A program made the position numbers and the translations under genes. Shown piece by piece: positions 1-14,723 of a stretch of 38,965 nt of DNA (position 1 is the stretch's first letter; every line of letters starts with the position of its first letter). This DNA comes from Gammaproteobacteria bacterium (GTDB lineage Bacteria; Pseudomonadota; Gammaproteobacteria; GRL18). The notes beneath the pieces were generated by a model that saw nothing but the letters and a program-made list of their open reading frames with translations, made no database searches and was not told the DNA's origin. The stretch is taken from the NCBI GenBank assembly GCA_015231865.1, contig JADGAU010000010.1, positions 1 through 38,965 on the forward strand, read 5' to 3'.

Positions 1-464
1 TCAGATTCTGAGGCATGAGGATGTTTATCAGGATGAAACTTTTGGGCCATACTTCTATAGGCTTTTTTAATTTGCTGATGAGTATAATGTTTACCAGGAT
101 TAAGGCCTAAAGTCGTTAAGTATTCTCTTTTAAGGGATTCCTGAATTGAACTACCTGATTGAGTTGACTGATATGAACTGCCAGACGTTGATTTTTCCTG
201 ATGAGAACGTTGATTATTTTTATTTGATGAGCTTTCCCGTTTATTCTGTTCTTGATCTTGCTGTTGTTGACGGTACCTTTGGGAATCTTCACGTCTTTTA
301 GCTTGTTCCTGGTTAAATTTGGATTGGTTCTGATCACGTTGTGCTTGTTCATATTTGCGACGAAGTTCTTCAACTTCTTCTTCCCGACGTTTAATATCTT
401 CATAGGCATCACGATATCGAATGGCATTGATAAAGATCAGCCAGTCCTCTGAGGATATGGGCAT
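1..464 (-). CDS. J-domain (DnaJ-like) protein, C-terminus cut by window edge
   Basis: This frame runs off the left edge, so the gene is partial. It starts at ATG 464 (MPISSEDWLIFINAIRYRDA) and overlaps the end of the upstream membrane protein gene by 56 bases. The middle is a long charged, Q/N/S-rich segment (about residues 20-100) that looks coiled or disordered. The visible C-terminus is a J domain with a YLTTLGLNPG start, the helix IKKAYRSMAQKFHP and the HPD motif (FHPDKHP) that stimulates Hsp70 ATPase. J domains at the C-terminus of a small accessory protein are not classical DnaJ. It is the last visible gene of the relaxase and coupling-protein operon, so a role in transfer or in handling the relaxase is possible but is only inferred. 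Confidence 0.8.
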   Translation of the reverse strand, partial: MPISSEDWLIFINAIRYRDAYEDIKRREEEVEELRRKYEQAQRDQNQSKFNQEQAKRREDSQRYRQQQQDQEQNKRESSSNKNNQRSHQEKSTSGSSYQSTQSGSSIQESLKREYLTTLGLNPGKHYTHQQIKKAYRSMAQKFHPDKHPHASES

Positions 465-669
465 GGGGTAATAGAAAACCAAAAATAAACGCACCGACCA
501 TCACAAATAGATGCGTTTCACCCATATTAAACTGTAGCATCATGGGAACAGTGATTAAGGCAAGCAATACAAATTTCCAGAAATTAAAATTTCTGGCATT
601 ACCGGCAGTGTAGCCTAAAGCTACCATAATGACCGATAAAAATATAAATGCAGAATAACTAATGCCCAT
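409..669 (-). CDS. small membrane protein of the mobilisation operon
   Basis: 86 residues with three hydrophobic segments (about residues 5-22, 31-47 and 53-67), so probably an inner-membrane protein. It overlaps the preceding gene by 11 bases and the J-domain gene by 56 bases, which indicates translational coupling. It ends in TGA (409-411). I do not recognise the family. Its place just after a coupling ATPase that lacks its own transmembrane part makes a membrane-anchor or pore role conceivable, but this is inference. Confidence 0.65.
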   Translation of the reverse strand: MGISYSAFIFLSVIMVALGYTAGNARNFNFWKFVLLALITVPMMLQFNMGETHLFVMVGAFIFGFLLPHAHILRGLADLYQCHSIS

Positions 670-910
670 AATTTTTCACCATACCGACAATAAACCCGAT
701 TGCAAAGACCGTACTGATAATAAAATTTTGTAAATCGGCAATACTGGCTGCCAAAAATAACAGAACGACATAAATCATTGGAAATAGAAAGTAACTACCT
801 AATAAGCCCCAGCTTGTGAAGAGTCGCCCCATATTGGTAAAAAACCAGGCAATACCATAGCCATTGAAATAAGCCAGTATTGAATAAAGCACTAATTCAG
901 TTTCATTCAT
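659..910 (-). CDS. small membrane protein of the mobilisation operon
   Basis: 83 residues, largely hydrophobic, with about three membrane segments (near residues 8-24, 40-58 and 62-80). The ATG (908-910) overlaps the TAA of the upstream 37-residue gene, and the gene overlaps the next by 11 bases. No family is recognised. It belongs to a run of four tiny membrane proteins between the coupling ATPase and the J-domain gene. Confidence 0.65.
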   Translation of the reverse strand: MNETELVLYSILAYFNGYGIAWFFTNMGRLFTSWGLLGSYFLFPMIYVVLLFLAASIADLQNFIISTVFAIGFIVGMVKNYGH

Positions 911-1023
911 TATCGTCGATTAAACAGCTCTTTTATAAAATAGTAGAATTCTTGGATGTAAAACATAGTTTTATCTTTACCCAGATAGCCTATTACGGCA
1001 AATAATAGAAAAGGCAAAGTCAT
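910..1023 (-). CDS. very small (37 aa) single-pass membrane protein
   Basis: A short ORF, ATG 1021-1023 to TAA 910-912, beginning MTLPFLLFAVIGYLGKDKTM. It has one N-terminal hydrophobic segment and a basic tail ending NRR. Its stop overlaps the next ATG (TAATG) and it starts 3 bases after the upstream stop. This exact packing is the main evidence that it is real. No homology is recognised. Confidence 0.5.
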   Translation of the reverse strand: MTLPFLLFAVIGYLGKDKTMFYIQEFYYFIKELFNRR

Positions 1024-1026
1024 TTC

Positions 1027-1206
1027 CTAGAGATTATTGATATCAACCAGAAATTGAGCAATAGCCGGTGTCACAATAATTAGAGTAATGATTTTAATAA
1101 GCCCGATATTTTTAAACAAGAATCCATAAACAAAACCGGCTGCACAAAATAATAAAATCCCGTAAATATTCAAACCGCTCGAGGGTAAAATAACGGTCAG
1201 ATTCAT
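1027..1206 (-). CDS. very small (59 aa) two-pass membrane protein
   Basis: ATG at 1204-1206 directly abuts the TAA of the coupling protein (1207-1209), and the gene ends in TAG at 1027-1029. The start is MNLTVILPSSGLNIYGILLF. Two hydrophobic helices lie at about residues 14-31 and 36-54. The contiguous layout supports it as a translated gene. The family is unknown. Its immediate link to a coupling ATPase without membrane helices suggests a partner role (inferred). Confidence 0.55.
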   Translation of the reverse strand: MNLTVILPSSGLNIYGILLFCAAGFVYGFLFKNIGLIKIITLIIVTPAIAQFLVDINNL

Positions 1207-2667
1207 TTATAAGCTAACTGTCTTTAACAGGATCTGACGATCACCATGATTGAGTTTAGCCTCCGGCTTTTTAGATAATCGTGAAAATGACCAGCTTTTA
1301 AAATAAGGTGTCGTGCTAAACTTAACCGGTTGTCGATTAGCCGATACAATTAATGCCTGATCAGATTTAATGGTTCTAACTTCATTGGCATTAATTAGGT
1401 TATATTCATTGTATTGGTCGGTTGTATCAAAAATTTCTTTTTGCTGCCGTTCCCTCACTTTACCAATTATTTTCTCAAAAAAATCCGCTGTCTTTGGATC
1501 AGCTCCGGAATAGGTTAAATAAGTATTAAAGCCACCCTGAATGGATTGAGCATACTCAGGCCCATAACGTGCGTCCAGTTGGCTGATACTTTGTAAAATT
1601 ATTGAAATAGACACTTTATAACCCCGTATAGTATTGATGGTTGATACAAAGTTGGGGATAGTAGAGTGACCAAACTCATCATATAGAATATAAACCGGTA
1701 AGGTTTTTCTATCCGGCATTTTTCTCATACAGGCATTAAATACACTGCGGAAAAACATACTGCTTAGAAAACTAAAATATTCTGCATGTTGTGCCGGTGT
1801 AATCAGATAAATAATGGTTTTCTGCTGCCGGATTTCATCGAGTTTAAAATCTGATTTTGAAGTCAGCCTGGAGACATTTTGATTGGATAGGCTTTTTAAT
1901 GAGGTAATGGCATTTAAAACAAAACTTTGAACACCTTCTTTATTACCGGTTAATACGCCTTTCCATTCATTCCAGAGTGTTGCGTCATCTACATTATCTG
2001 GATTAATGGTATAACGACTCATAAAATCATCCAGATTACTGCCATCTTCACCAAAGTTCTGGAAAAGATAATAAAGATTATGGAGGTTATAGTAATCGGG
2101 GTTTTCGTTGCCGGCATTTTTCAGGCATTTAATAAATAAACTGGCAAAACGAACAGCACCCTGAATCCAAAAATCATCTTTGCCACCCTGAGAAGGCAGG
2201 CCACTACGGACTAAAATTTCAGCAATCTGCTCGATTTCAATTTCATCTCTGGCCTCACTAAAGGGATTAAAGAAACTGCTGCGCTCGAGGTTTTCTGGAT
2301 CAATCACAATCACTTGATAACCACATTTTTGCATATGACCGGAGGTATGCTCAAAGACTTCACCTTTAGGATCGTTAACCACGATAGAGCAGTTTCTTCT
2401 CGCTTTATCCAGCACATTGGGAATAATATAACGGGAAGTTTTACCGGCACCTATTCTGGCAGTGACACAGACATTTTGCAGGCTATCGGTTTCAGATAAG
2501 CGTAACTTAGCCCCATCAAGCAGCAGACCATTATTTCTGGCACATAGATAATCAGCAAAAGAACTATCATCTGCAAATGAGGCACCTGATACTGATTTAC
2601 TTAGTTTACGTTTTATTAAATAAGTGGCCCCTTTGGCCATTAAACTGAAGGTATCTTTAAGTACCAT
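1207..2667 (-). CDS. VirD4/TraG-like type IV coupling ATPase
   Basis: 486 residues. A P-loop ATPase of the VirD4/TraG/TraD family, which in conjugation brings the relaxase-DNA complex to the secretion channel. Visible motifs are Walker A ARIGAGKTS (about residues 70-78), the family motif IVVNDPKGEVFE just after it, and Walker B-like YILYDEFGHS (about residue 330). The usual N-terminal transmembrane helices are absent and the protein is shorter than typical VirD4, so it may depend on the small membrane proteins encoded next to it. Its ATG overlaps the relaxase TAA (TAATG). It uses the standard code. Confidence 0.88.
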   Translation of the reverse strand: MVLKDTFSLMAKGATYLIKRKLSKSVSGASFADDSSFADYLCARNNGLLLDGAKLRLSETDSLQNVCVTARIGAGKTSRYIIPNVLDKARRNCSIVVNDPKGEVFEHTSGHMQKCGYQVIVIDPENLERSSFFNPFSEARDEIEIEQIAEILVRSGLPSQGGKDDFWIQGAVRFASLFIKCLKNAGNENPDYYNLHNLYYLFQNFGEDGSNLDDFMSRYTINPDNVDDATLWNEWKGVLTGNKEGVQSFVLNAITSLKSLSNQNVSRLTSKSDFKLDEIRQQKTIIYLITPAQHAEYFSFLSSMFFRSVFNACMRKMPDRKTLPVYILYDEFGHSTIPNFVSTINTIRGYKVSISIILQSISQLDARYGPEYAQSIQGGFNTYLTYSGADPKTADFFEKIIGKVRERQQKEIFDTTDQYNEYNLINANEVRTIKSDQALIVSANRQPVKFSTTPYFKSWSFSRLSKKPEAKLNHGDRQILLKTVSL

Positions 2668-3728
2668 TATTTTCTCTTATGCTCATTACCATAGGATAGT
2701 TTTGACTGCTCTCTTATTTTATTCATTTCTGCTTTTCTGTCTCTGACAATTTGCTCTTCTCGGGATAAATTTTCATACTGTTTTATTTTCTCAGTATCGT
2801 CGACATTGCTTTTTCCCTTAGTTGTATTATCAGACTTTTGTTTGGTTTCAGTTGTATTATCCACTTTTTTATCACGTTGTTTAAAGGTTTCCTTAGTTTT
2901 TGTTTTCTGTTTATTGTGTTCCTGGCTTTCTTTTTCGGTAGTCTTTTTGTTCTTTATCTTATCGGTAATTTTCTGATTAATTTTTTCAAATTCATCGATA
3001 AAGCCCAATGTGCTTAATCGGTGTTTACGACCGGTTGCCCTGTCTTTCAGTCCCGGATTTTTTCCACGGATATAAAAATCCAGACCTGCTTCATCAAATC
3101 CTTTTAATAATGCTTCTGTACTGTCAGATTGATTAAATATTTGTCTCACTTTTTCCCTAACCACTTCTCTTTGTGGTGTTTTGCCGGTACGGCGTTTCAA
3201 TTCTGCACCTTTGTTGGATAGTTTCTCAGATGACTTTTTATTAATCAGCTCTTTTTGTTCAAGCTCTGGGTATTGCTCCAATACATTTTTTTCCAGTGAT
3301 TTTTTAATTACATCAAATTTAGATTTAGATAAACGATGTCGCTTTGTGGAGGAGACTTCATTAGAACTGATAATGACATGAAAATGGATATTATTATCAT
3401 GATCATCATGAAGGGCTGCAAATGCCAGATTATTTTGTGCTCTATCCTGAATATAATGATGTACAATTTGTCTGAGTTTTTCTTTTTGCTCATCCAGTTT
3501 GATTTGTTCGCTGCGGGTAATGGAGATGACTTCATGATACATATAATTACCGCCAGCACGTCTTCTTAAATATCGGGCGTTTTGAATAAATTCATTTTTT
3601 ACATCTTCTGCATCACGAGAGTATAAATTATGGTAGATACTAAAACGGCTATCGGCACGGCCAGAATCCATATAATCAATCAGCTGATTAAAAGAAGGCT
3701 CTTTGCGTGACATGGATTTGATAATCAT
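2667..3728 (-). CDS. MOBP/VirD2-type relaxase
   Basis: 353 residues. The N-terminal half is a relaxase domain that would nick oriT and attach covalently to the DNA 5' end. A candidate catalytic tyrosine lies near the start (IDYMDSG, Y19). The metal-binding histidine motif is HDDHDNNIHFH (residues 107-117), as in the MOBP and VirD2 group. The C-terminal third is a lysine, glutamate, glutamine and threonine-rich charged tail. Its ATG overlaps the MobC-like stop (ATGA), and the coupling protein follows in the order typical of mobilisation modules. It uses the standard code. Confidence 0.88.
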   Translation of the reverse strand: MIIKSMSRKEPSFNQLIDYMDSGRADSRFSIYHNLYSRDAEDVKNEFIQNARYLRRRAGGNYMYHEVISITRSEQIKLDEQKEKLRQIVHHYIQDRAQNNLAFAALHDDHDNNIHFHVIISSNEVSSTKRHRLSKSKFDVIKKSLEKNVLEQYPELEQKELINKKSSEKLSNKGAELKRRTGKTPQREVVREKVRQIFNQSDSTEALLKGFDEAGLDFYIRGKNPGLKDRATGRKHRLSTLGFIDEFEKINQKITDKIKNKKTTEKESQEHNKQKTKTKETFKQRDKKVDNTTETKQKSDNTTKGKSNVDDTEKIKQYENLSREEQIVRDRKAEMNKIREQSKLSYGNEHKRK

Positions 3729-4105
3729 GGTTTCATTTTCTCTTGAACAAAATCCTGGACAGTCTCTTCGAGTTGTTTGATTTGATTAAGCAATCCATTT
3801 TCATCAGCCAATGCACGAATAGTATGAGAATAATGGGCTGCCTGATTGACATTATTGGCAATATTTCTAATCAGGAATTTTAGTTCCTGTAATTCTTTTT
3901 TCAGATCTTTGGGAACTGCTAAATTGCCACTTAGGCCAGCAAAAGCAAAATCTTTAATCAAGGTGGTGACTTTGGTTTTTTCTTTATTTGCCAGGTGAGA
4001 AAATGCTTTGTATTCATCATTGGAAACAGAAATGCTAATACGTCGATGCGATTTTGCATACTGTTTGCGATAGTTTTTCTGGTAATCTGATTGGGTCTCA
4101 TCCAT
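3725..4105 (-). CDS. MobC-like relaxosome accessory protein
   Basis: Small basic protein upstream of the relaxase. The segment RRISISVSNDEYKAFSHLA resembles a ribbon-helix-helix DNA-binding domain. The central ELKFLIRNIANNVNQ stretch is typical of MobC-family relaxosome proteins that bind oriT and help strand separation. The frame is open upstream to 4222. I chose the third of three consecutive ATGs (4105, giving MDETQSDYQK) because CAGGAG lies about 7 bases before it; 4108 and 4111 are alternatives. It ends in TGA, overlapping the relaxase start, so TGA is a stop in this module. The candidate oriT lies directly upstream. Confidence 0.8.
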   Translation of the reverse strand: MDETQSDYQKNYRKQYAKSHRRISISVSNDEYKAFSHLANKEKTKVTTLIKDFAFAGLSGNLAVPKDLKKELQELKFLIRNIANNVNQAAHYSHTIRALADENGLLNQIKQLEETVQDFVQEKMKP

Positions 4106-4157
4106 CATCATTCTCCTGAAAAAGTTGGTTGAATACGGTATAATGGTTTCGGGTTCA

Positions 4158-4420
4158 AAGGGCTGGCCCTTGCAAGATGCTGCCATATTCGTTACGAATA
4201 TGCAATCTTGCTCACACTGCACAGAGCGTTGTCAATTCTAGAATGCTTAGCAGTTTAATCAAGCGTGGTTATTGTGTCGGGCAATAATTGCCCGGGCACT
4301 TGCAGCACAAAAGTGCTGCCATCTTCATTGCTTGCTTTGAAGATGAAATAAAAGCCGGTTGAAAACCGGCAACGATAAATGTCGAATCAATAACACAGGA
4401 TAAGTGTCAATACGAAATCA
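4158..4420 (-). other. candidate oriT: six hairpins and a P-type nic-like site
   Basis: This intergenic stretch upstream of the MobC-like gene contains six hairpins: 4158-4171 (AAGGGC/GCCCTT), 4172-4211 (GCAAGAT/ATCTTGC around CATATTCG/CGAATATG), 4278-4294 (CGGGCAAT/ATTGCCCG), 4302-4319 (GCAGCAC/GTGCTGC), 4320-4345 (CATCTTCA/TGAAGATG) and 4354-4370 (GCCGGTT/AACCGGC). On the minus strand CTTATCCTG/TGT (4404-4393) fits the IncP-type nic consensus YATCCTG/Y and is framed by ACAC/GTGT. The place next to mobC and relaxase genes supports an origin of transfer. The exact borders are a guess. Confidence 0.55.
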
Positions 4421-4446
4421 AAGATTTCTGTTCCACATAAAAAATA

Positions 4447-4470
4447 AAAACTTACCCGAAGGTAAGTTTT
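4447..4470 (-). terminator. rho-independent terminator of the 97-aa gene
   Basis: Perfect 10-bp stem AAAACTTACC/GGTAAGTTTT around a 4-base loop (4457-4460). Read on the minus strand it is followed by a T-rich run. It lies about 80 bases after the stop of the gene at 4547-4840 and also separates it from the candidate oriT. Confidence 0.75.
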
Positions 4471-4546
4471 AACAATAAGAATCCAGAGAATAAAGCTGAA
4501 CTATAGTATCGTAAAGATAACTGATATTTTTGCTGTAAACCTCTCA

Positions 4547-4840
4547 TCACCAACCAATATGATATTCAACACTTTTCCATCTTGTATTTACATTCAGATA
4601 AACATTAGGACCACCATAAGTTAGGCAGATTTCAAAATATCCATAGTCATATTCTTCATTCTTATAAAACTGAATTTCAAGTACATCGAAATATTCTGAA
4701 ATTAAAATATCTGATTCATCTTGATCACCACTGAAATTAATATCAATAAATTGTTTGATAAATTCATCAGATTCAAGATTTTCATAAGCTAAAACTTCAG
4801 CTTCATAATTGTCGGCATATTGCCTTAGTTCATTTTTCAT
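4547..4840 (-). CDS. conserved-looking hypothetical acidic protein
   Basis: 97 residues, acidic, no signal peptide or membrane segment. The C-terminal part ICLTYGGPNVYLNVNTRW is reminiscent of small proteins with a YGGPN motif that I associate with plasmids and integrative elements, but I cannot name a function. No Shine-Dalgarno is visible before ATG 4840. It is followed by its own terminator at 4447-4470, so it is a single-gene unit in the accessory region. Confidence 0.6.
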   Translation of the reverse strand: MKNELRQYADNYEAEVLAYENLESDEFIKQFIDINFSGDQDESDILISEYFDVLEIQFYKNEEYDYGYFEICLTYGGPNVYLNVNTRWKSVEYHIGW

Positions 4841-5258
4841 ATTGCGAAAAAATTAAAATATAAATTAGGACGATTAATCCTGGCCATTAATCACAATGCG
4901 CCGAGGCCACTCAAATTTTTATGAAAAAAATTGGATTGTGGAGGTGATAATTTTTCAGGAGGAAAATATTTTTCAAAAAAATTTGAATGGTTGAGTTTTA
5001 AGAGATTTTTAATTCCTTTGAAAGTAATGGTTAAAAATCCTTAAAAGCGCTTTGTATAATGGATAAGGATTGATTGATTTAACCGTTCATAATCTTAGAA
5101 CATGCGTTTAGAAAGCACTAAAAACGCTCAAATCCAGGTAGTTGATGACTTTCAGTTTATTGTATTGATATTTTGAATTTTGACAAGAAAATCAGCCAGG
5201 TTTCCCTGACTGATAATTCTACAAGTGAACGACCTGTTTTTCCTTATCGTTATAAGCG
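4841..5258. other. gene-free AT-rich stretch
   Basis: About 420 bases with no supportable gene. It contains A/T runs and a loose inverted repeat (CAAATTTTT near 4914 and AAAAATTTG near 4978). A TAATCCTGG sequence at 4874-4882 resembles, but does not match, the nic consensus. No convincing promoter was found. Confidence 0.5.
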
Positions 5259-5750
5259 TTAAATCATTCCACGTTCTGCCATTGAGACATTCTGGTCACC
5301 ACCAATGACAATATGATCTAATACTCGAATATCCATCAATTTCAATGCCTCGACCAGTCTTTGGGTGATAAGTTCATCAGATTGACTGGGCTCTGGATTG
5401 CCCGATGGATGATTATGAGCAAAGATAACTGCAGCGGTATTAAGTTGTAAAGCTCTTTTGACCACTTCTCTTGGATAAACCGAAGAAGAGTCAATCGTAC
5501 CACGAAACATTTCTTCATATTGAATAATTTTGTGGGTATTATCCAGAAATATCAGGCTAAAGACTTCGTGTTCCAGATGAGATAGTTTCAATTTTAAAAA
5601 ATCGATACTATCTTTTGGCGCACTGAGTACTTTGCCTTTGGCAAAACGACGGTTAAGTAATTGTTTAGCCATACGGACAATTTCATTGACAGAGACTGTA
5701 CCTTCAACAACATATTCTCCTGTATTTTCACTGGCTACAAAACGATTCAT
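5259..5750 (-). CDS. RadC-family JAB/MPN domain protein (short form)
   Basis: 163 residues. RadC family, with the JAMM metalloprotease-like signature HNHPSGNPEPSQSDELI (about residues 115-131) that would bind zinc. The short form lacks the N-terminal helix-hairpin-helix part of chromosomal RadC and is common on plasmids, integrative elements and genomic islands. The biochemical function of this group is not settled. AGGAGG lies 7 bases before ATG 5750. It ends in TAA 5259-5261 and follows the DUF2958 gene on the same strand, probably in one transcript. Confidence 0.9.
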   Translation of the reverse strand: MNRFVASENTGEYVVEGTVSVNEIVRMAKQLLNRRFAKGKVLSAPKDSIDFLKLKLSHLEHEVFSLIFLDNTHKIIQYEEMFRGTIDSSSVYPREVVKRALQLNTAAVIFAHNHPSGNPEPSQSDELITQRLVEALKLMDIRVLDHIVIGGDQNVSMAERGMI

Positions 5751-5775
5751 AATAAGTCCTCCTATTGTTAATTTT

Positions 5776-6090
5776 TTATGGTTGAACCAGCTTAGAAAAC
5801 CGCTGTTGTGTGAAATACAAATCTTGTTCTATTCTGGGAACACCCAGATTAGAAAGCTCAATTTCTGACAACTCATCCAAGGAAACATAACCCCATTCAT
5901 CTTCCATTAATCCGGTTACATAGCCAAAAGCGATATGATTAATTGGATTGAATTCTGTCAGATACCATGTAGCACTGCCAAAAGCATCAAATAACTTAGC
6001 AATAACTAAGGGATCAGACGTATTTTCCTGTGAAGATATAGGATAATTTTCAAACAATTGTATAAACTCAGAATTGATTAATCGATTCAT
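5776..6090 (-). CDS. DUF2958 family protein
   Basis: 104 residues. The order of motifs (VIAKLFDAFGSATWYLTEFN, then HIAFGYVTGLMEDEWGYVSL, then LGVPRIEQDLYF) matches DUF2958, a small family frequent on plasmids and conjugative elements with no known function. AAAGGAG lies 8 bases before ATG 6090. The distal arm of a long inverted repeat (6101-6174) ends within this ribosome-binding site, so translation could be influenced by hairpin formation. It uses the standard code and is the last such gene before the TGA-recoded block. Confidence 0.8.
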   Translation of the reverse strand: MNRLINSEFIQLFENYPISSQENTSDPLVIAKLFDAFGSATWYLTEFNPINHIAFGYVTGLMEDEWGYVSLDELSEIELSNLGVPRIEQDLYFTQQRFSKLVQP

Positions 6091-6100
6091 GATAAGACTC

Positions 6101-6174
6101 CTTTTTTAAATAGACAGGTGCTGGCTTTAAACGTTGTAGAATGGTTCAAAGGCAGCAAAATCTATTTAAAAAAG
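6101..6174. repeat. long inverted repeat at the border of the TGA-recoded block
   Basis: Perfect 14-bp arms CTTTTTTAAATAGA (6101-6114) and TCTATTTAAAAAAG (6161-6174), with inner complementarity (GCTGGCTTT against AAAGGCAGC, one mismatch). It begins 5 bases after the stop of the last TGA-recoded gene (6179) and its other arm reaches the Shine-Dalgarno of the DUF2958 gene. It could be a terminator, an RBS-masking leader or an element end. Confidence 0.65.
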
Positions 6175-6178
6175 AAAA

Positions 6179-7006
6179 TTATGGGGTTAGAAACTTTACT
6201 AATTGGCCATCGGCTTTTAACCGGTTGTCTCAAAATTTATGTATTCATGACGTTTTATGTTTGAATATAAAGTGCTGTTTATACTGCAGCAGTTGTGATT
6301 GTTTCATGAAAAGAATTAGAACGGTGTTAAGGCATTTTTCAAACTCAAAAACAAAGATAATGCTTTGAGGTTTTAAATCCGATCATTTTTTTGTTTTTAT
6401 GCCATAAGTTAGTCATAACGAATATCTTTTGATTTGCTCAAGTGCTCGTTTGGCATTTTTTCCATTGTGCTGTTCAAATAATAAACATCTGACTTGTCAC
6501 TGTGCCTGATAGATTGCAATTAAATCCGGTTCAACCGGTTTTCCCTGAATTATGATCTGTGTCTGAGCAATCATTTTTTCACCAAAGCTTTGTTTATTAA
6601 AATAGATGAATAATGATTGTAGCGGGTAGTTTTTTTCAGCCAGCCACTTTTGAAATGCAATATTAAAATCAATGGTTGCTATTCGATGAAAATAATCACG
6701 CTGGAAAAAAATGGAATTGTGTTTTGGTATTTGAATAGTATTTGGCCTAAGCTTACATTCATTAATCAATAACTTTTTTCATGCTTTACTTAGATAATGA
6801 ATACGGTCTAATCTGCCTTGGCCCGGTACAAGGCCAAAATCGAGACTTTTGACCAGAGGGTAGCGAAAAGTTTTTAATCATCTGATATTACGATTAATGG
6901 AACTGATACTTTGATGGTGAAAAATGAGTTTGAGTTGTTTTGTGGTCAGAAACTTAAAATGAGCCAGTGCTTTTAATATATTTATTTGCTTGTCCGTTAA
7001 TTTCAT
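6179..7006 (-). CDS. replication-relaxation-like protein, TGA-recoded (7 in-frame TGA)
   Basis: Readable only if TGA is sense. From ATG 7004-7006 to TAA 6179-6181 it gives 275 residues with TGA at residues 43, 76, 170, 198, 208, 254 and 259. The N-terminus (MKLTDKQINILKALAHFKFL) is a winged-helix type domain, followed by LVKSLDFGLVPGQGRLDRIH and YLSKA-TGA-KKLL, where family members usually have a glycine. A PDLIAIYQ...ALEQIKRYS region follows. The layout resembles replication-relaxation family proteins of mobile elements. The start overlaps the ATPase end by 10 bases. No Shine-Dalgarno is seen. Family assignment is moderate; the reading frame is strongly supported. Confidence 0.75.
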
Positions 7007-8316
7007 GATGAATGTTTATTAGATAAAGAACGATAGTACTTTCGTAAATTCCTGGCTTTTATCAAATACCAGAGGTTATCATCAATGGCATAATTGTCTT
7101 TGAGTAATAATTTTGGTGCTTTGATTTTAATTGCCTGTTTTCAGTTGGACTTAACATAAAACAGTCAAACTCTTAGATTCATCAAATCCACTAAAGATAC
7201 ACCCATTTCACTTCAAAGATTAAGAAGACTATGTTTTTCATTCTTTCCGGCAATAATTACATTGGATGCATATAATGCTTTTTGAAGCGTATAAGAAATT
7301 TGTTGCCCAGTATATTGATGTGCCAGGATTAAATGTAAACCATATTTTCTTAGTTGAGTCAGCCCTTTTTCAATATCGTCGGTAACAAAGTTTTGAAACT
7401 CATCGATAAAGAGATAAGTTGGCGTTCTAAAAGGTGCTGGAATATTGCTGCGCTGAAAAGCAATAATACGCAGTAATCCAACAATAAAACGACCATAAGA
7501 TTGCACACTATTACTACCGGATTCTCATAGTGATAGTTTAAAAAGGATGATTTTTTTTTGATTAATTAACTTTTTTAAAGGAAGCGTGGTTTTAATTGAA
7601 ATCAGATTTTGAAATACCGGTTCATTAAGTAAGACTTGAAGACGAGTATAAAGTCCGTGTTTGGTTGCTGAATAAAACTTAGAATAAAATTTGGTTTTAA
7701 ATAAAATGGCATGTTGAGGATTGGGGGAGCGTGCTCAAACCTCAACTAAATCATGATTATTGTCATCATCCATAAAGCGTTGTAAATCAGAGAAATCACT
7801 ATTGGGCCTTCTCAGTAAAGTGGCAATACAGGGTGATAATATGGCATCCATTTGATTGGTTGTATTGGCATTTTGTAATAGCACAGAAAAGATACTTTTA
7901 AGCTCCTGTGTCATCAGCGCAATATTTTTCTCACTTCTATCTGTAATTTCAAAAGGATTAATACTGGGACTGTGGTTTATATCCAGACTTGGGTCAATAT
8001 AAACAATGCGATCAGCAATTTTTCTATTTTTGACCGGTTTGAGTTTAGCTATTTCTTCTGCCAGGTCACCATGCGGATCAATAAGAATTAAACTGCTTTT
8101 AGGCTTTTTGTTTAATAGTTCTCTGTAAAAAAGGAGTTTAATCAACTCACTTTTTCAGCTTCCTGAAGATGCACAGATATATCCATGTTTTTTAAATGCA
8201 TATAAAGGGACAAGTCGATTCAATTTATAATAAAAATAGGCAAGATAAAACTTTTGTATGGGCAGGTACAAAAATTTGAAAATATTTAAGATAAATCAAA
8301 ATAATTTGGTCAACAT
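6997..8316 (-). CDS. TraD/VirD4-like DNA-transfer ATPase, TGA-recoded (8 in-frame TGA)
   Basis: 439 residues when TGA is sense, ATG 8314-8316 to TAA 6997-6999. TGA falls at residues 7, 54, 194, 264, 368, 384, 392 and 438. Residue 54 is the invariant Walker A glycine (ASSGS-TGA-KSE). LILIDPHGDLAEEI follows, and Walker B is TYLFIDEFQNF (Asp near 305). Residue 264 (FKLSL-TGA-ESGSN) and residues 384 and 392 (NLRV-TGA-LFYVKSN-TGA-K) lie where related ATPases favour glycine. The N-terminus is aromatic and hydrophobic (about residues 1-35) and may be a membrane anchor. Under the standard code it would be five or more fragments, all broken by TGA and none by TAA, TAG or frameshift. Confidence 0.85.
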
Positions 8317-8384
8317 AATGGTTAAATAAGAGGTAAACTTTTGGTTGTTTTCTAGTGTGCAAGATTGTTGTGATTAGTAAGCGG

Positions 8385-8639
8385 TTAATCAGGCTTTTCT
8401 ACGTTTAAATTCCCAGTTACCTGGCCTTCCAGATCGTCAGGTAATTTACTGTCATAAATTCAGCGGGATAATATACTGGTCATTTTAACAATTGCTTTGA
8501 TTTGCTCGGGTGTTAATTCAACTAAATCATAATAAACCTTTATACGATTGGCGCTATTGGCCTTGTTCTTTTTAGATTCTTCGTTTCAGTGAAAATAAAG
8601 GTCAACCTGAAAGGAAGTCAGGTAAGTTTGTTGTGTCAT
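8385..8639 (-). CDS. 84-aa protein of unknown function, TGA-recoded (2 in-frame TGA)
   Basis: ATG 8637-8639 to TAA 8385-8387, with TGA at residues 18 and 60. It begins MTQQTYLTSFQVDLYFH and contains VYYDLVELTPEQIKAIVKM and KLPDDLEGQVTGNLNVEKPD. It is soluble and mixed-charge, with no recognised family. A consensus-perfect sigma-70 type promoter lies 54 bases upstream (8693-8720), so it heads the unit with the ATPase and replication-relaxation genes. No Shine-Dalgarno. It is too short in the standard code to appear as an ORF. Confidence 0.65.
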
Positions 8640-8692
8640 AAAGAGATGATTAGGAATAAATTGGTTCGCTTTATTTTTAAAGGAACAATTTA

Positions 8693-8720
8693 ATTATACT
8701 GATAAAAGCTAATTTGTCAA
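8693..8720 (-). promoter_or_regulatory. consensus sigma-70 promoter for the recoded operon
   Basis: On the minus strand TTGACA (8715-8720), a 16-bp spacer and TATAAT (8693-8698), both hexamers perfect. It points into the 84-aa gene and then the ATPase and replication-relaxation-like genes. Confidence 0.75.
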
Positions 8721-8811
8721 ATCTTGACTATTTATCAATAAGATACATAATATATTTTGCTCACCTTTGGGCTATTTAAAGCCAAAACAATTTTTTAAAG
8801 ACAAAATAAAA

Positions 8812-8847
8812 GCCTTGTTCACAATTTTTGAACAAGGTTGCTTTTTG
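8812..8847 (-). terminator. probable terminator overlapping the Rep end region
   Basis: CCTTGTTC (8813-8820) and GAACAAGG (8830-8837) form a perfect 8-bp stem. T-rich sequence flanks it on both sides, so it could work in either direction. It lies just after the TAA of the full-length Rep frame (8850-8852). Confidence 0.65.
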
Positions 8848-8849
8848 GC

Positions 8850-10127
8850 TTATTTTAGGTGTTTCTGGTAAATATAGCGTTTAAAACTACAGGAGACCAA
8901 ATGATGGTTAAAATCTATATTTTCTTTTCAACGTTTGAAAACATTACCCAGGATAGAGTTGGCAAATTCATTTTGTAATTCACTGAGTTGTTGCTCTGAT
9001 AATCCATCCAGATAATTATCAACAGCATTATTCATAATTTGATAGGCTTTCTGAGTTTCTTTGTCTTTTTGCTCCTGAAGCAGTTTTTCAGCTACTTCCA
9101 TTTGCTGTTTTTTTTCCTTCTCTTTCTTCTTGATACAAGCAGATGTTAATAATTCATCAATATCCGGTGATTTTTTTAGGACACCATAGAGATAACTTTT
9201 TTCTGATTGTATAGCCTAGCGTTTTTTCTTGTCCATCACATAAAGATAAATCTGCTTAAGGTAATCAGCTCAGAGTTTATTGAGCAATAAACCATATTCA
9301 GGTTCTTTAAATCCGATAGCCAGGTATTTATCCTGTAAATCAGTATTTCATTTTGTTCCAGCACTTAAGATTGGTTTGTCAGGCACTATGGGTAGTTTTT
9401 TTGTTTGTGCTAAATTTTTAATGGGACTCCTCTTAATATCAAAGATAAATCCAGCGATTCTTCTGCCATGTTTATAAGAGCTGCAGGATACTTTGATATC
9501 GGTAACACGATTAATCAATTTAATTGACGGTTCCAGTAGACTGCTTTTTAAATGACCGACCAGTTTATACTGAGATTTTTTGATAGAAAGCAAATCACGC
9601 AGAGCGGATAAAGGTACTTCTCCCGTATTGCCACGATAAAGATAAGAATAAAAGAAAGCATAAAGTTTAAAATGGTTTTCTTTTTTAAAATAGCGGATAT
9701 TTTCAATCTTGGGTGATGAAAATTTTCCAGTAATCCCAATTAAAAAGGGTAGTATCTCATCATCCAGGCGGATATCTACATAAGAATGTCCATCATTTTT
9801 ATAAAACTGGCAGGAATGCACAAGGTTTCTTTTAAGCCAACCGTTTTTCTTTTTAATCTTGATATAAGACCCCATTAAAGCATCGGTTGCCATATCAATC
9901 CTGGCTATGGCATTTTTATCAGACTTTAGGGCTGGGAAAAATTCAATCAATTGCCTGGTAAAAATACGGTAGGTATGAAATTGTTCGTCCTTCTGTCTGA
10001 TCATGGAAATGGCGACAGATAAGACTCGATGGGCGTCAGTTGGCAGATTAAATGTCGCCGAGGTGAATTCGTTGGTCCTGACTAAACTGTTTTTTCAGTC
10101 AATGTTGCTTACTTCTATATGTTCCAT
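8850..10127 (-). CDS. Rep_3-type plasmid replication initiator, TGA-recoded, one in-frame TAG
   Basis: From ATG 10125-10127 the frame runs to TAA 8850-8852 (425 residues) if TGA is sense (residues 11, 260, 286 and 400) and a single TAG at residue 304 (9216-9218) is passed. The N-terminus SLVRTNEFTSATFNLPTDAH and MATDALMGSYIKIKKKNGWL match Rep_3-type initiators with two winged-helix domains. The C-terminal region is charged (KKKEKEKKQQMEVAEKLLQE), ending with LSEQQLSELQNEFANSIL as in many Rep proteins. The TAG may be a nonsense mutation (one base from CAG or AAG), leaving a 303-residue product. Iterons and an operator-like repeat lie just upstream. Confidence 0.8.
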
Positions 10128-10150
10128 AATTTTAAGTTAATGATTAATAG

Positions 10151-10178
10151 CCTCAATATATTGAAATATCACAAAGAT
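10151..10178 (-). promoter_or_regulatory. possible rep promoter
   Basis: On the minus strand TTGCAT, a 16-bp spacer and TATATT precede ATG 10127 by a few tens of bases, overlapping the operator-like inverted repeat (10168-10193). The -35 match is imperfect, so this is a weak call. Confidence 0.4.
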
Positions 10179-10193
10179 GCAAGTTTTTGTGAT
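10168..10193. promoter_or_regulatory. operator-like inverted repeat before rep
   Basis: ATCACAAA (10168-10175) and TTTGTGAT (10186-10193) form a perfect 8-bp inverted repeat with a 10-bp centre. The half-site core TGTGAT also occurs in the middle iteron (AAGTGTGATGG). In iteron plasmids Rep dimers often repress their own gene from such an inverted repeat; that role is inferred here. Confidence 0.55.
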
Positions 10194-10227
10194 AGTATTT
10201 TTTGTGTTCCATTTTTGAGATATCTCT

Positions 10228-10290
10228 CCTGAAAGTTGTAATACTTCACCTGAAAAGTGTGATGGTTGTCCTGAAAAAAATGATAATTAA
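10228..10290. repeat. three 21-bp direct repeats (iterons), candidate plasmid origin
   Basis: CCTGAAA starts at 10228, 10249 and 10270, an exact 21-bp period. The second copy is CCTGAAAAGTGTGATGGTTG; the others diverge in the second half. The A+T-rich stretch that follows and the adjacent Rep_3 gene fit an iteron-type replication origin. Confidence 0.65.
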
Positions 10291-10533
10291 ACTACTTATT
10301 CCCTTTAGTTAAGCCAACAGTTACAGGCTTAAACGAATAGAAACGATTAAATATATAAACTACTGTATGTGGTAAATAATCTTAAATCTTTTCTCTCATT
10401 CCTTATCTTCAACTAAACAGACACCAAAACAGACACCAAACGATAAAAATGGGTAATTTCAGGGTGCAAAAAAGCTGAATTTCAAACAATAAAAAAGCCC
10501 TGTAATCGATTGATATACAAGGCTTTAAGAATA
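10291..10533. other. non-coding stretch between iterons and tRNA-Asn
   Basis: No gene is supported. It holds a 12-bp tandem repeat (CAGACACCAAAA, CAGACACCAAAC; 10418-10441) and the tRNA terminator stem (about 10492-10528). This is where an element joined at the tRNA 3' end would have its att region, but no integrase gene and no second copy of the tRNA end were found in the window. Confidence 0.5.
10490..10530 (-). terminator. terminator after tRNA-Asn
   Basis: On the minus strand AAAGCCTTGTA and TACAGGGCTTTTTT form a stem with a T run, immediately 3' of the tRNA gene. Confidence 0.65.
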
Positions 10534-10608
10534 TGGCTCCCCCAATATGATTCGAACATATGACCAAGTGATTAACAGTCACCTACTCTACCGCTGAGCT
10601 ATGGGGGA
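10534..10608 (-). tRNA. tRNA-Asn (anticodon GTT)
   Basis: Cloverleaf on the minus strand with acceptor arm TCCCCCA/TGGGGGA, D-arm GCTCAGCGGTAGAG, anticodon loop CTGTTAATC (GTT), T-loop GTTCGAATC and an encoded CCA end (10534-10536). A good promoter lies upstream. tRNA 3' ends are common integration sites, and the mobile region begins directly downstream. Confidence 0.95.
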
Positions 10609-11437: not shown

Positions 11438-12622
11438 TTATGAAAATAACTTTTCCAGACGTGAAATTGCTTCCTTCAAGTTTTCCATACTGGTAGCAAA
11501 CGATAAACGAATATTACCGGGTGCACCAAAAGCTGTTCCTGGGACTAAGGCGACTTCTGCTTTTTCCAGAATATAGTTTGTTAATTCAACATCATCATTA
11601 ACATCAACGATACGATTGATTAATTCTTTAACATTAAAAAAACAATAAAAAGCACCTTGAGATTGTAAAGCTTTTATACCATCAATCTGGTTTAAGGCAT
11701 TGACAATGTAATCGTGTCTTTCTTTAAATGCGGTTAACATCTCAGTGATACAGCCCTGATCCCCATTTAATGCTTGTAGTGCAGCAGCTTGCGAAACAGA
11801 TGAAGGGTTTGAAGTACTTTGTGACTGAATTTTTGTCATGGCCTTGATAACTTCGATAGGCCCCGCACAATAACCAATACGCCATCCGGTCATAGCATAA
11901 GCTTTACTGACACCATTCATGGTAATCACTCTGTTTTTTAAATCCGGACAAACCTGGGCAATAGTAGAATAGGCTTCTTCAGACCAGATAATATGTTCAT
12001 ACATATCATCACTGGCAATAATGACATTTGGATAATCTCTTAACACTGCTCCTATTTGCTCTAAATCTTCACGACTATAACAAACACCGGTTGGATTCGA
12101 TGGACTATTAATAACCAATAAACGAGTTTTATCTGTGATTGCATCCTGAAGTTGTTGAGCGGTTAACTTGAAACCTTGTTCTATTCCGGCAGAAACAATA
12201 ACAGGCTTGGCATCGGCAAGAATGACCATATCAGGATATGAAACCCAGTAAGGGGCAGGAATAATGACTTCATCACCCGGGTTTAATAATGCCTGACACA
12301 GGTTATAAAAACTTTGCTTCCCGCCACTTGAAACTAGAACTTGCTCAGCGGTATATTCAAGATCATTATCTCGTTTGAATTTATCAACAATTGCCTGTCG
12401 AAGTTGAACGGTACCGGCAACGGCCGTATAGCGTGTTTCACCTTCATTAATTGCCTTAATTGCCGCATTTTTTATATGTTGAGGTGTATCAAAATCCGGC
12501 TCGCCTGCAGCAAGACCAATGATACTTTTACCGGCAGCCTTTAGCTCTTTAGCCTTTGCAGTAATCGCTAATGTGGCGGAAGGTTTAACTGAATTTACAC
12601 GATTAGATAAACTGATGCTCAA
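11438..12622 (-). CDS. class I PLP-dependent aminotransferase (AspC/AatA-like)
   Basis: 394 residues, the normal length for the aspartate aminotransferase Ib subgroup. Seen are the N-terminal substrate-domain sequence GLAAGEPDFDTP, the NSPSNPTG loop, SDDMYEHIIW, and the PLP lysine in GVSKAYAMTGWRIGYCAGP (about residue 239), with R of WRIGY binding substrate or phosphate. Likely transfers amino groups between aspartate or related amino acids and 2-oxoglutarate; exact specificity cannot be read. It starts at TTG 12620-12622 with TGGAG eight bases upstream. It is divergent from uvrB. Confidence 0.92.
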   Translation of the reverse strand: MSISLSNRVNSVKPSATLAITAKAKELKAAGKSIIGLAAGEPDFDTPQHIKNAAIKAINEGETRYTAVAGTVQLRQAIVDKFKRDNDLEYTAEQVLVSSGGKQSFYNLCQALLNPGDEVIIPAPYWVSYPDMVILADAKPVIVSAGIEQGFKLTAQQLQDAITDKTRLLVINSPSNPTGVCYSREDLEQIGAVLRDYPNVIIASDDMYEHIIWSEEAYSTIAQVCPDLKNRVITMNGVSKAYAMTGWRIGYCAGPIEVIKAMTKIQSQSTSNPSSVSQAAALQALNGDQGCITEMLTAFKERHDYIVNALNQIDGIKALQSQGAFYCFFNVKELINRIVDVNDDVELTNYILEKAEVALVPGTAFGAPGNIRLSFATSMENLKEAISRLEKLFS

Positions 12623-12698
12623 GTTGATTCTCCAGTCAATGTCAGAACTGTTATAATAATATCATATAATACTAATAAACCACCAAGACTTTATAACA

Positions 12699-14723
12699 AT
12701 GTTTAAAAGAAATATGAAAGATATTTATCAATTAGAATCAAAATTTGAACCCGGCGGTGATCAACCTAAAGCTATCAATGATTTAGTCGAGGGTATCAAT
12801 AACGGCGAATTGGGTATGACGCTACTAGGTGTAACAGGTTCTGGCAAAACCTTTACTATGGCTAATGTTATTTCTCAGTTACAACGTCCGGCGTTAATTC
12901 TGGCTCACAATAAAACCCTGGCAGCGCAATTATATGGAGAAATGAGAGAGTTTTTTCCACATAATTCAGTGGAGTATTTTGTTTCCTACTATGATTATTA
13001 TCAGCCAGAAGCCTATGTACCAACATCTGATACTTTTATTGAAAAAGATGCTTCCATTAATGATCATATCGAACAAATGCGCTTATCAGCAACTAAAGCA
13101 CTTCTTGAACGATCTGACACTATCATTGTTGCTTCGGTTTCCTGTATTTATGGTTTAGGTGATCCTGAGTCTTATATGCAAATGCTATTACATGTATCTC
13201 GTGGCGAAACGATTGATCAGCGCAGCATCTTAAGACGTTTAGCAGAATTACAATACACTCGCAATGATGTCGTTTTTCAGCGAGCAACTTATCGGGTTCG
13301 GGGTGATGTCATTGATGTTTACCCAGCCGATTCGGATAGTGAAGCGGTTCGAATTGAATTATTTGATGATGAAGTAGAAGCGCTATACTACTTTGATCCG
13401 TTAACAGGTGAAATTATAAAAGAAGTTGCCCGGTTAACGATTTACCCCAAAACTCACTATGTTACTCCTCGGGAAAAAATTCTAATCGCTATTGAAGATA
13501 TTAAGGAAGAATTAAAAGAGCGCCTGGAATATTTACGTGCGGAGAATAAATTGGTTGAAGCTCAAAGGCTTGAGCAAAGAACACAACTAGATTTAGAAAT
13601 GCTCAATGAGCTTGGCTATTGCTCTGGTATTGAAAATTACTCTCGCTACCTTTCTGGCAGAAATCCCGGTGAACCGCCACCAACTTTTCTTGATTATTTA
13701 CCCGATGATGCCCTTATCTTTATTGATGAAAGCCATGTTACGATTCCTCAAATAGGCGCGATGTATAAAGGCGATCGTTCCCGTAAAGAAAACCTGGTTA
13801 ACTATGGTTTCCGTTTACCTTCTGCTCTGGATAATCGTCCTTTACGCTTTGATGAATACGAAAAGCTAGTCTCTCAATCCATTTATATCTCTGCTACGCC
13901 AGCCAATTACGAAAAAGAGCACTCCGGTTTTATTACTGAGCAGGTTGTACGCCCTACCGGTTTAATCGATCCCGAAGTATTTATACATCCGGCGACTAAC
14001 CAGGTGGATGATTTATTATCGGAAATCAATCAAACCACTAAAAATAATGAACGAGTTTTAGTGACCACATTAACAAAACGCATGGCTGAGGATTTAACCG
14101 ATTACTTAACCGATCATGATGTACGCTGTCGTTATTTACATTCTGACATTGATACGGTAGAACGAATTGAAATTATCCGGGATTTACGCTTAGGTGAGTT
14201 TGACGTGCTCATCGGTATTAACTTATTAAGAGAAGGTTTAGATATACCTGAAGTATCCTTAGTGACTATATTGGATGCTGATAAAGAGGGCTTTTTACGT
14301 TCCGATCGTTCTTTAATTCAGACCATGGGCCGTGCTGCCAGAAATGCCAATGGACGTGTGATTTTATATGCCGATAGAATTACCGGTTCTATGCAACGCG
14401 CCATGGATGAAACCCAAAGACGTCGTGAAAAGCAGATGGCATTTAATGAAGAGCATGGAATTACACCACAGGGCATTCGTAAATCAGTACAGGATATTAT
14501 GGATAGCGCCATTCCCGGTACCGGTAAAAGCAAAAAGATTAAACATAAAAAAGTGGCTGAGAATCAGGCTGAATATGCGGTTATGTCGCCTGAGCAATTA
14601 CAAAAGAAAATTAAAGCTCTGGAAAAAACCATGTTTGATCATGCGCAAAATATGGAGTTTGAAATGGCGGCTAAAATTCGTGATGAAGTTAAGGCATTAC
14701 GTGACAACTTTCTGCTCGTGTAA
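12699..14723 (+). CDS. uvrB: UvrB, excinuclease ABC subunit B
   Basis: 674 residues, full length. Damage-verification helicase of nucleotide excision repair, loaded by UvrA and cleaved at by UvrC. Seen are Walker A GVTGSGKT (about residue 45-52), the beta-hairpin [12 protein letters not shown], the DESH-like box FIDESHVT, the helicase motifs [20 protein letters not shown], and the C-terminal UVR motif ([20 protein letters not shown]) that binds UvrC. The family start may be the second ATG (12714, [11 protein letters not shown]). Divergent from the aminotransferase with about 75 bases between them. Confidence 0.98.

Follow-up and report, generated by a model that had tools for sequence, protein, structure and literature searches.

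A probable bilingual integrative mobilisable element of gammaproteobacteria and code-25 bacteria

Departures from the standard genetic code are usually regarded as a barrier to the exchange of genes. The integrative and mobilizable elements (IMEs) known to us are written in the code of their host, and stop-recoded phages, in the cases described, come with a suppressor tRNA of their own and work in a single host. Here, we analysed a stretch of 38,965 nucleotides (the window), a contig of a 3.54-Mb gammaproteobacterial genome (G000; 94% complete, 299 contigs), which carries part of an element written in two codes: a standard-code mobilisation module and a set of genes that stay open only when TGA is read as glycine, as in code 25. 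The uvrB gene of this genome is 66.5% identical to E. coli uvrB at the DNA level over 82% of its length. We propose that the element is probably a bilingual integrative mobilisable element that would shuttle between gammaproteobacteria and code-25 (Gracilibacteria-type) bacteria, small cells that presumably live on them. Mobile DNA, as its family from marine bacteria suggests, can cross the barrier by carrying a gene set for each code. Below, genomes are labelled Gxxx and loci Lxxx, and copies may be written as pairs (L003/G004); L008 lies in G003 and L105 in G811.

A preliminary description of the window had placed a recoded block between a standard-code mobilisation module and a host tRNA gene, and this arrangement was confirmed. 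The block occupies window positions 6179-10127 on the minus strand, as do all features of the window given below. On one side lies a tRNA-Asn(GTT) gene (10534-10608; ARAGORN, Rfam), a host gene at the element border, and on the other a standard-code DUF2958 gene (its end at 6090), followed by RadC, MobC, MobA relaxase and TraG genes. Read with code 25, the block holds four genes. First, rep (9216-10127) encodes a Rep_3 plasmid initiator with both winged-helix domains, WH1 and WH2 (Pfam Rep3_N 6.7e-19, Rep3_C 3.4e-12), and has three TGA codons before an in-frame TAG (9218-9216); its C-terminal continuation (8850-9215) holds a fourth. Homologues in G002, G003 and L006 have four to five TGA codons. 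The TAG stands after both winged-helix domains and is private to the window, since three full homologues are open there, so that it is probably a nonsense mutation or a sequencing error. The initiator also matches NCBIfam RepM (1.6e-26, below that model's cut-off). Upstream, iteron-like repeats with a 21-bp period form a probable replication origin, oriV (10215-10300); we compared them with those of L007 and L008, and the window has two copies (a third by eye), L007 three and L008 four. Second, o84 (8385-8639) encodes a small protein of 84 amino acids with two TGA codons, conserved in seven loci with at least one TGA in each; it matched no Pfam family above cut-off and no NCBIfam family, and its fold model is of low confidence. 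Third, tra (6997-8316; eight TGA) encodes a type IV coupling protein (T4CP) or HerA-like ATPase predicted to pump DNA (Pfam DUF87 6.4e-10, T4SS-DNA_transf 1.7e-7). Finally, rlx (6179-7006; seven TGA) encodes a Replic_Relax (replication-relaxation) protein, which may be a working relaxase; its match to Pfam PF13814 lies exactly at the cut-off (25.3 bits, 1.9e-5), next to a PHROG match annotated as replication initiation by nicking (5.8e-5).

The flanking module had been described as standard-code. This holds for its DUF2958, RadC, MobC, MobA and TraG genes; a fifth recoded gene, o123 (4469-4840; two TGA), lies among them, and therefore the recoding is interleaved with the standard genes. The o123 protein is conserved in G002, G003, G004 and L005, with TGA in each; it matched no Pfam or NCBIfam family and no PDB sequence, and its fold model, of moderate confidence, had no significant fold match.

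The five recoded window genes are open only with TGA as glycine and contain 23 TGA, no TAA and one TAG in 1346 in-frame codons. Their off-frame codons (n = 2692) include 98 TGA, 104 TAA and 28 TAG, and at that rate the probability of at most one TAA or TAG in the five genes is about 3e-28. The composition of the block differs from both flanks, as a k-mer comparison suggested earlier could reveal: its tetranucleotide distance is 0.0172 and 0.0173 to the flanks, which differ from each other by 0.0114, and the 3949-bp chromosomal pieces of the window that were tested lie at most 0.0141 from the chromosomal flank, below the block. We then compared 31 recoded copies from eight loci (rep 4, o84 7, tra 8, rlx 7, o123 5), a few of them cut by contig ends; the rep of G004 (62 amino acids aligned, two TGA, cut by the contig start) is outside this set. 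Over 8155 codons, the copies contain 123 TGA, no TAA and one TAG, with at least one TGA per copy and exactly one in two copies. The residue opposite TGA in the other alignment rows is glycine in 118 of 342 cases, serine in 36 and tryptophan in one, and one TGA of the window tra encodes what we take to be the Walker A glycine. The earlier assignment of the block to a code-25 source of the Absconditabacteria/Gracilibacteria type was borne out. The same elements carry 32 standard-code genes. Of these, 29 were taken with their stop, and the ends of the remaining three miss the stop; none of the three has an internal stop. TGA terminates 11 of the 29, and therefore the present hosts use TGA as a stop. 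Since these genes were picked as open frames in code 11, their lack of internal TGA is no evidence in itself. The GC contents of recoded and standard genes are close in the five loci where both were measured.

The element belongs to a family. A scan of one genome per species gave 302 pattern-matching stretches and 98 relatives; among the best 80, which were kept, six loci (L003-L008) are 58-72% identical to the window ATPase, and all six are TGA-recoded there without TAA or TAG. L007 lies in Colwellia sp. 1_MG-2023 strain I2R04, which is titled as a strain and taken here as an isolate, and L008 in Colwellia MAG-91. L003 belongs to a proteobacterial metagenome-assembled genome (MAG) and L004 to a gammaproteobacterial one, and L005 and L006 are from MAGs labelled Neomarinimicrobiota and Flavobacteriaceae, possibly misbinned. 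L004-L006 are short contigs. G811 came from 295 searched genomes of the Colwellia family; it is a single contig of 4.77 Mb from a genome listed as 4.8 Mb, and its ATPase is 47% identical and has eight TGA codons. Thus, the T4CP of the family spans 47-72% identity, and seven loci beyond the window carry sets of these genes, in recoded form at every occurrence. Members are few and scattered: they occur in 1 of 369 genomes of the window's class and 1 of 24 of its order (its own genome both times), and in 3 of 295 of the Colwellia family.

Combining the copies gives the order integrase and AlpA, o141, rep, o84, tra, rlx, DUF2958, cargo, o123, mobC, mobA, traG, small open reading frames (ORFs) and a DnaJ-like gene, in which rep, o84, tra, rlx and o123 are recoded. 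A standard-code tyrosine integrase lies next to groEL in G003 (groEL by Pfam Cpn60 in L008) and in G811 (groEL by eye); it was not seen in the window, where the contig ends first, or in the stretches read of G002 and G004. AlpA occurs in G002, G003 and G004, and in L003/G004 it lies at the opposite end of the element. The G811 element has no DUF2958, AlpA, rep or o123. MobA/VirD2 relaxase homologues are found in G002, G003, G004 and G811. The cargo varies. L007 carries an AAA-ATPase next to a subtilase, G811 has HamA together with a helicase, and in G004 rep and o84 are separated by about 19 kb of genes in standard code. The 4.77-Mb contig of G811 indicates a chromosomal location, as do the contigs of G002 and G003 (345 and 396 kb), and the window copy adjoins tRNA-Asn. 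The junction between rlx and DUF2958 (window 6090-6179) is similar in four assemblies, with gaps of 88 bp in the window, 74 in G002, 75 in G003 and 88 in G004.

These copies bear on the possibility that the window is an assembly chimera or holds a contaminating code-25 contig. The window is a MAG contig, contamination by code-25 contigs is an artefact documented in the consulted part of PMC8629427, and L005 and L006 are short contigs in MAGs labelled as other phyla. Set against this, the layout is repeated in L007, from the Colwellia genome with a strain title, beside groEL in two Colwellia-family genomes, one of them the 4.77-Mb contig, and in other MAGs. The junction shared by four assemblies, the Colwellia strain and the 4.77-Mb contig therefore rule out a chimera for the family, which strengthens the earlier view that simple mis-assembly was less likely. 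For the window contig itself, a chimera is unlikely judging by this shared layout, and as an account of the whole observation we give it next to no weight.

The initiation regions of the two gene sets differ sharply. A Shine-Dalgarno core stands upstream of none of 28 recoded genes (L005 tra, L006 rlx and G811 o84 have no start available) and of 13 of 24 standard genes from these elements (p = 4e-6). Two of the standard starts are doubtful, namely G002 alpA (misplaced, counted with a core) and window mobC (counted without one); without them, the count is 12 of 22. The mean anti-Shine-Dalgarno energy is +1.3 for the recoded and -5.0 for the standard genes (p = 2.6e-9). For comparison, the core precedes 6 of 20 chosen host chromosomal genes of the window and 9 of 182 mechanically called genes from nine code-25 genomes, all in the class to which Ca. 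Peribacteria belongs; G234, whose piece has hardly any TGA, was left out of this sum. Shine-Dalgarno cores are thus absent from the recoded genes and scarce in the code-25 genomes, so that the recoded genes start like those of a code-25 cell, although standard neighbours have a similar GC content. Many recoded ATG codons, in all loci, have a TAA(C) motif about 12-16 nt ahead of them, with almost no G in the final 20 nt; the motif may signal initiation, or belong to a promoter, in the code-25 host.

Both halves are under purifying selection and kept working. Between the two Colwellia copies, the ratio of nonsynonymous to synonymous divergence (dN/dS) is 0.129 for rep, 0.019 for o84, 0.103 for tra, 0.087 for rlx and 0.123 for o123, and 0.055-0.198 for four standard genes, with dS at 0.33-0.93 over all genes and 0.33-0.62 for the recoded ones. 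The preliminary description had weighed an epibiont plasmid captured by a gammaproteobacterium. As a single event, this is not supported. Copies spread over 47-72% T4CP identity share one set of recoded genes next to standard-code neighbours, with purifying selection on the two sets alike; maintenance for two hosts explains this better than capture does.

Given release factor 2, complete translation of the TGA-containing genes is not expected in such a host. We listed the tRNAs of G811 from 150 of 334 first-look candidates that were scored, and the anticodon TCA occurs in none of the 92 found; thus neither a suppressor tRNA, including tRNA-Gly(UCA), nor a selenocysteine tRNA is among them, and the reading cell, if any, is another. 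The element stretches searched with Rfam gathering thresholds (window, L105, L107, L108, L109, L112 and L006) gave no suppressor tRNA, their only tRNAs being the bordering tRNA-Asn and one in L112. ARAGORN found no tRNA in L003-L009. In G002, a hand-picked part of 47 tRNA places was read (13 stretches, 10 tRNAs found). A search for host suppressor tRNAs by DNA pattern was uninformative: of five genomes, four gave counts that were close to those of the reversed control or lower, and G004, where a simple repeat contributed, gave more.

These tRNA data speak to a second alternative, in which the TGA stops form a translational lock that silences the genes within the gammaproteobacterium until a suppressor tRNA or strong readthrough appears, as in stop-recoded phages. 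The accounts consulted in part describe phages whose recoded genes depend on suppressor tRNAs, and one TGA column is common to 6 of 7 o84 rows and another to 5 of 5 o123 rows. The column sharing is in excess in these two genes (p = 0.011 and p = 0.045, post hoc and with few rows) and at chance in rep, tra and rlx. When the glycines encoded by TGA were shuffled, the first TGA showed no bias towards the 5' end (combined p = 0.84). Thus, TGA positions drift mostly like synonyms without 5' bias, which argues against a lock; the absence of a TCA tRNA in the G811 list and of a suppressor tRNA in the searched stretches counts against it as well, and the missing Shine-Dalgarno sites would be left unexplained. 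We rejected the lock as the main explanation after the shuffling test and regard it as very improbable.

The case for a two-host element also draws on a recombinase. Beside its standard-code tyrosine integrase, the G811 element carries a code-25 serine recombinase of 526 codons with 18 TGA (Resolvase 1.2e-18, Recombinase 9.4e-14). Relatives at 22-51% identity occur in 30 of 77 genomes of one code-25 order, that of G223 (E<=1e-10). From its TGA use and a CGA use higher than in the order of G206, this order is probably Gracilibacteria BD1-5. The best eight relatives are 37-52% identical in the alignment and have 3-20 TGA codons each; at the 18 TGA positions of the G811 gene, they have TGA in 55 and another glycine codon in 29 of 136 cases. 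Matches to phages reach at most 25% and those to plasmids at most 26% (among 12 matches listed for each), and no match was found in viral contigs. G064 and G246 have two such recombinases each on the fetched stretches, near small recoded genes that look alike by eye, in the manner of native mobile elements. Similarly, at L187, L188 and L190 of code-25 genomes, serine recombinases stand near small recoded genes that resemble each other between genomes, like native integrative elements.

Contact between hosts of these kinds has been suggested or described before. In the part of PMC6851277 consulted, a marine BD1-5 gracilibacterium, in which no release factor 2 gene was detected, rose once Colwellia dominated, a region of its genome came possibly from a Colwellia relative, and an association with Colwellia was suggested. 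An Absconditicoccaceae epibiont on gammaproteobacteria is the subject of PMC13059738 as far as seen, and the excerpt of PMC12102498 reports type IV secretion systems as widespread in Patescibacteria, mostly without known relaxases.

The main structural argument for an element with two hosts is that a relaxation-type and a coupling-type protein are present in each code. In the gammaproteobacterium, the standard-code tyrosine integrase would keep the element in the chromosome, and MobC, MobA and TraG would mobilise it from there, using a pore borrowed from elsewhere. Once inside a code-25 cell attached to the host, where TGA is glycine and Shine-Dalgarno sites are little used, Rep and the iterons would replicate it, or the serine recombinase would integrate it, and the Replic_Relax protein with the HerA-like ATPase may return it. 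The code-25 part would then be unreadable by the gammaproteobacterial host and would serve the element in its second host. In this sense, the genetic code itself could act as a host sensor: only the standard half would be made in the gammaproteobacterium, for integration, persistence, cargo and mobilisation out of the cell, and the other half would be switched on in a code-25 epibiont or predator. Each half has its own functions for integration or replication, relaxation and coupling, from which a regular two-host cycle across phyla would follow. We hold this cycle to be somewhat better than an even bet; it is the bolder part of the proposal, resting on expression and transfer that we read from sequence comparison.

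Several observations weigh against the shuttling element. First, no copy of it was found in any code-25 genome. Searching for the block there, as proposed earlier, gave for the T4CP distant matches of at most 34% identity in 101 of 288 genomes of the code-25 class. For Rep, two code-25 orders, with 49 and 77 genomes searched, each had one genome with a single distant match (25-28%, without TGA), and the recombinase was absent from all 49 genomes of the order of G206. The closest T4CP relative outside the family is in an Arcobacter MAG (L009; 36%, no internal stop, standard code). Second, the individual copies are incomplete. The window copy is cut by the contig end, so that its far end is missing. 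That end was not found in the window's own genome, where no alpA occurs elsewhere at E<=1e-15. The window rep has its TAG, and G811 has neither rep nor o123. No att repeats of at least 11 bp were found between the groEL side and the far-end stretches tried in G003 and G811. Third, the start codons were placed mechanically. Finally, a further mark of code 25 is unevenly expressed. According to the consulted part of PMC8629427, Absconditabacteria seldom use the arginine codons CGA and CGG or have reassigned them, and this applies in part to Gracilibacteria as well. In G004 (GC 0.45), they make up 4 of 52 arginine codons in recoded and 48 of 127 in standard genes (p = 2e-5). The differences are not significant in the window (6/53 vs 14/74), G002 (8/46 vs 17/71) and G003 (7/43 vs 24/91), and in G811 the direction is reversed (12/42 vs 21/102); these four together give 33/184 vs 76/338 (p = 0.26). 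Low values in recoded L004 (1/26) and L005 (0/48) have no standard genes in the same locus for comparison. CGA/CGG avoidance is therefore kept as partial support and not as a general mark, and the pooled figure (43/357 vs 124/465, p = 2e-7) is not to be relied on, since the scarcity is clear by locus solely in G004. CGA codons of the recoded genes mostly align with arginine. CGG stands at otherwise mostly tryptophan columns in window rlx (column 273) and in tra of G002 and G003 (column 632; phenylalanine in G811), which is suggestive at most of the further reassignment of CGG to tryptophan known from code-25 bacteria. As a second signature this was rejected, since other CGG codons fall at variable columns and the recombinase relatives align CGG with lysine or arginine.

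Some of these points would suit a third explanation, a fossil capture, in which a code-25 plasmid joined a mobilisable element of standard code long ago, in a single event, and the recoded genes are now dead passengers among gammaproteobacteria. The TAG in the window rep, the absence of rep and o123 from G811, the lack of a copy in code-25 genomes and the use of CGA and CGG in the AT-rich copies, the same as in their standard neighbours, are all compatible with it. Dead passengers are at odds with a single TAG and no TAA over the 31 copies, with dN/dS of 0.02-0.13 in the recoded genes, with the CGA/CGG avoidance kept in G004, with 28 of 28 starts that have not drifted to Shine-Dalgarno sites, and with the close code-25 serine recombinase of G811. 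The fossil capture is thus already disfavoured and appears unlikely, though less so than the lock, and we retain the element maintained for two hosts as the better account.

The remaining window genes of the element are standard-code. DUF2958 (5776-6090; Pfam 1.5e-14) has a Shine-Dalgarno site and is followed by a RadC/JAB gene (5259-5750; Pfam 5.5e-46). The putative mobC (3725-4222) encodes a NikA/ribbon-helix-helix-like mobilisation protein, with weak Pfam RHH/NikA matches below cut-off and a conserved position before mobA; its GTG start is probably placed too far upstream, as homologues reach the first residues only across stops. The mobA gene (2667-3728) encodes a MobA/VirD2-type relaxase (Pfam PF03432, 1.1e-8), and traG (1207-2667) a VirD4/TraG coupling protein (Pfam 1.1e-59; NCBIfam conju_CD1115 1e-70, just below its cut-off). 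A small conserved protein, o82 (659-910), is 46% identical to its L003/G004 homologue. A DnaJ-like gene (3-669) is split over two overlapping frames, an N-terminal part (409-669) and a C-terminal part (3-494) in a different frame that is cut by the contig end; in G004, both form a single ORF, so that a frameshift, decay or an assembly error near the contig end is involved. Together with the private TAG in rep, this split means that the window copy may be partly decayed. No VirB gene was found among the ORFs scanned, a part of all ORFs. A PHROGs scan of ten window proteins gave no convincing virion gene and a weak terminase match (0.0017) to the T4CP-like ATPase. Translated searches of plasmids (tblastn) matched the T4CP at no more than 31% in 12 records and the relaxase in one record, and o123 in none; viral contigs gave two distant T4CP matches (27-28%).

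At the element borders, similar intrinsic terminators, a hairpin and then a GGGCTTTTT-like run, follow the bordering host genes (groEL in G003 and G811, tRNA-Asn in the window and a tRNA in G004), and such terminators may be the integration target. Contig C87 of G000 shares no more than a tRNA terminator. In a relative of the window's host, an AlpA at G982:C21:2863-3285 (L197) is 55% identical to the family AlpA and possibly belongs to another family element. The G811 locus L105 has, on its minus strand, 582 codons open with code 25 (12141-13889; 14 TGA) between the recoded rlx and the HamA cargo, which may be a gene or chance, and two small ORFs with three and one TGA (7939-8409 and 2828-3067) as possible extra recoded genes; none of the three matched a Pfam family. 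G261, from the code-25 order of G223, has standard-code relatives of the T4CP and Rep_3 proteins; at 2.7 Mb, about twice the size of most neighbours, it is probably a mixed bin.

The family suggests that DNA is exchanged regularly between gammaproteobacteria and code-25 Patescibacteria. The element would then serve as a sequence-level marker of who lives with whom among bacteria that are almost uncultured, with the Colwellia strain as a starting point for experiments, and it may offer a natural basis for code-25 vectors. Standard gene callers break such recoded genes into pieces, which calls for care in their annotation.

Among the papers searched in the open-licence part of PubMed Central (preprints being outside this scope), we found nothing comparable described, and the element is best placed beside the systems that it partly resembles. 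It shares with IMEs a chromosomal location, a tyrosine integrase and AlpA in some copies, its own relaxase and coupling protein, variable cargo and a conjugation pore that is expected to be borrowed; it differs in a fixed gene set in code 25, a second relaxation-type protein, a second coupling-type ATPase and, in G811, a second integrase. The initiator with WH1 and WH2 and the 21-bp iteron-like repeats are those of the Rep_3/RepM iteron plasmids of gammaproteobacteria; however, the element's initiator is TGA-coded, lacks a Shine-Dalgarno site and is at most 27.9% identical to plasmid initiators (best 15 of 3364 records). Like the stop-recoded phages (Crassvirales and others) in the accounts consulted in part, the element has genes that need an alternative meaning of a stop codon, but here no suppressor tRNA was found, and the glycine meaning and the initiation regions match another phylum. 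The G811 recombinase resembles the large serine recombinases of code-25 bacteria, at 37-52% identity to eight of them and with shared TGA positions, and yet its place is a gammaproteobacterial chromosome, where a standard-code element surrounds it. Lastly, the code-11-compatible phages of Gracilibacteria and Absconditabacteria are likewise mobile DNA predicted for both code-25 and standard hosts, in the part of PMC10746230 consulted; these phages avoid in-frame TGA, whereas the two-code element splits its genes between the codes.

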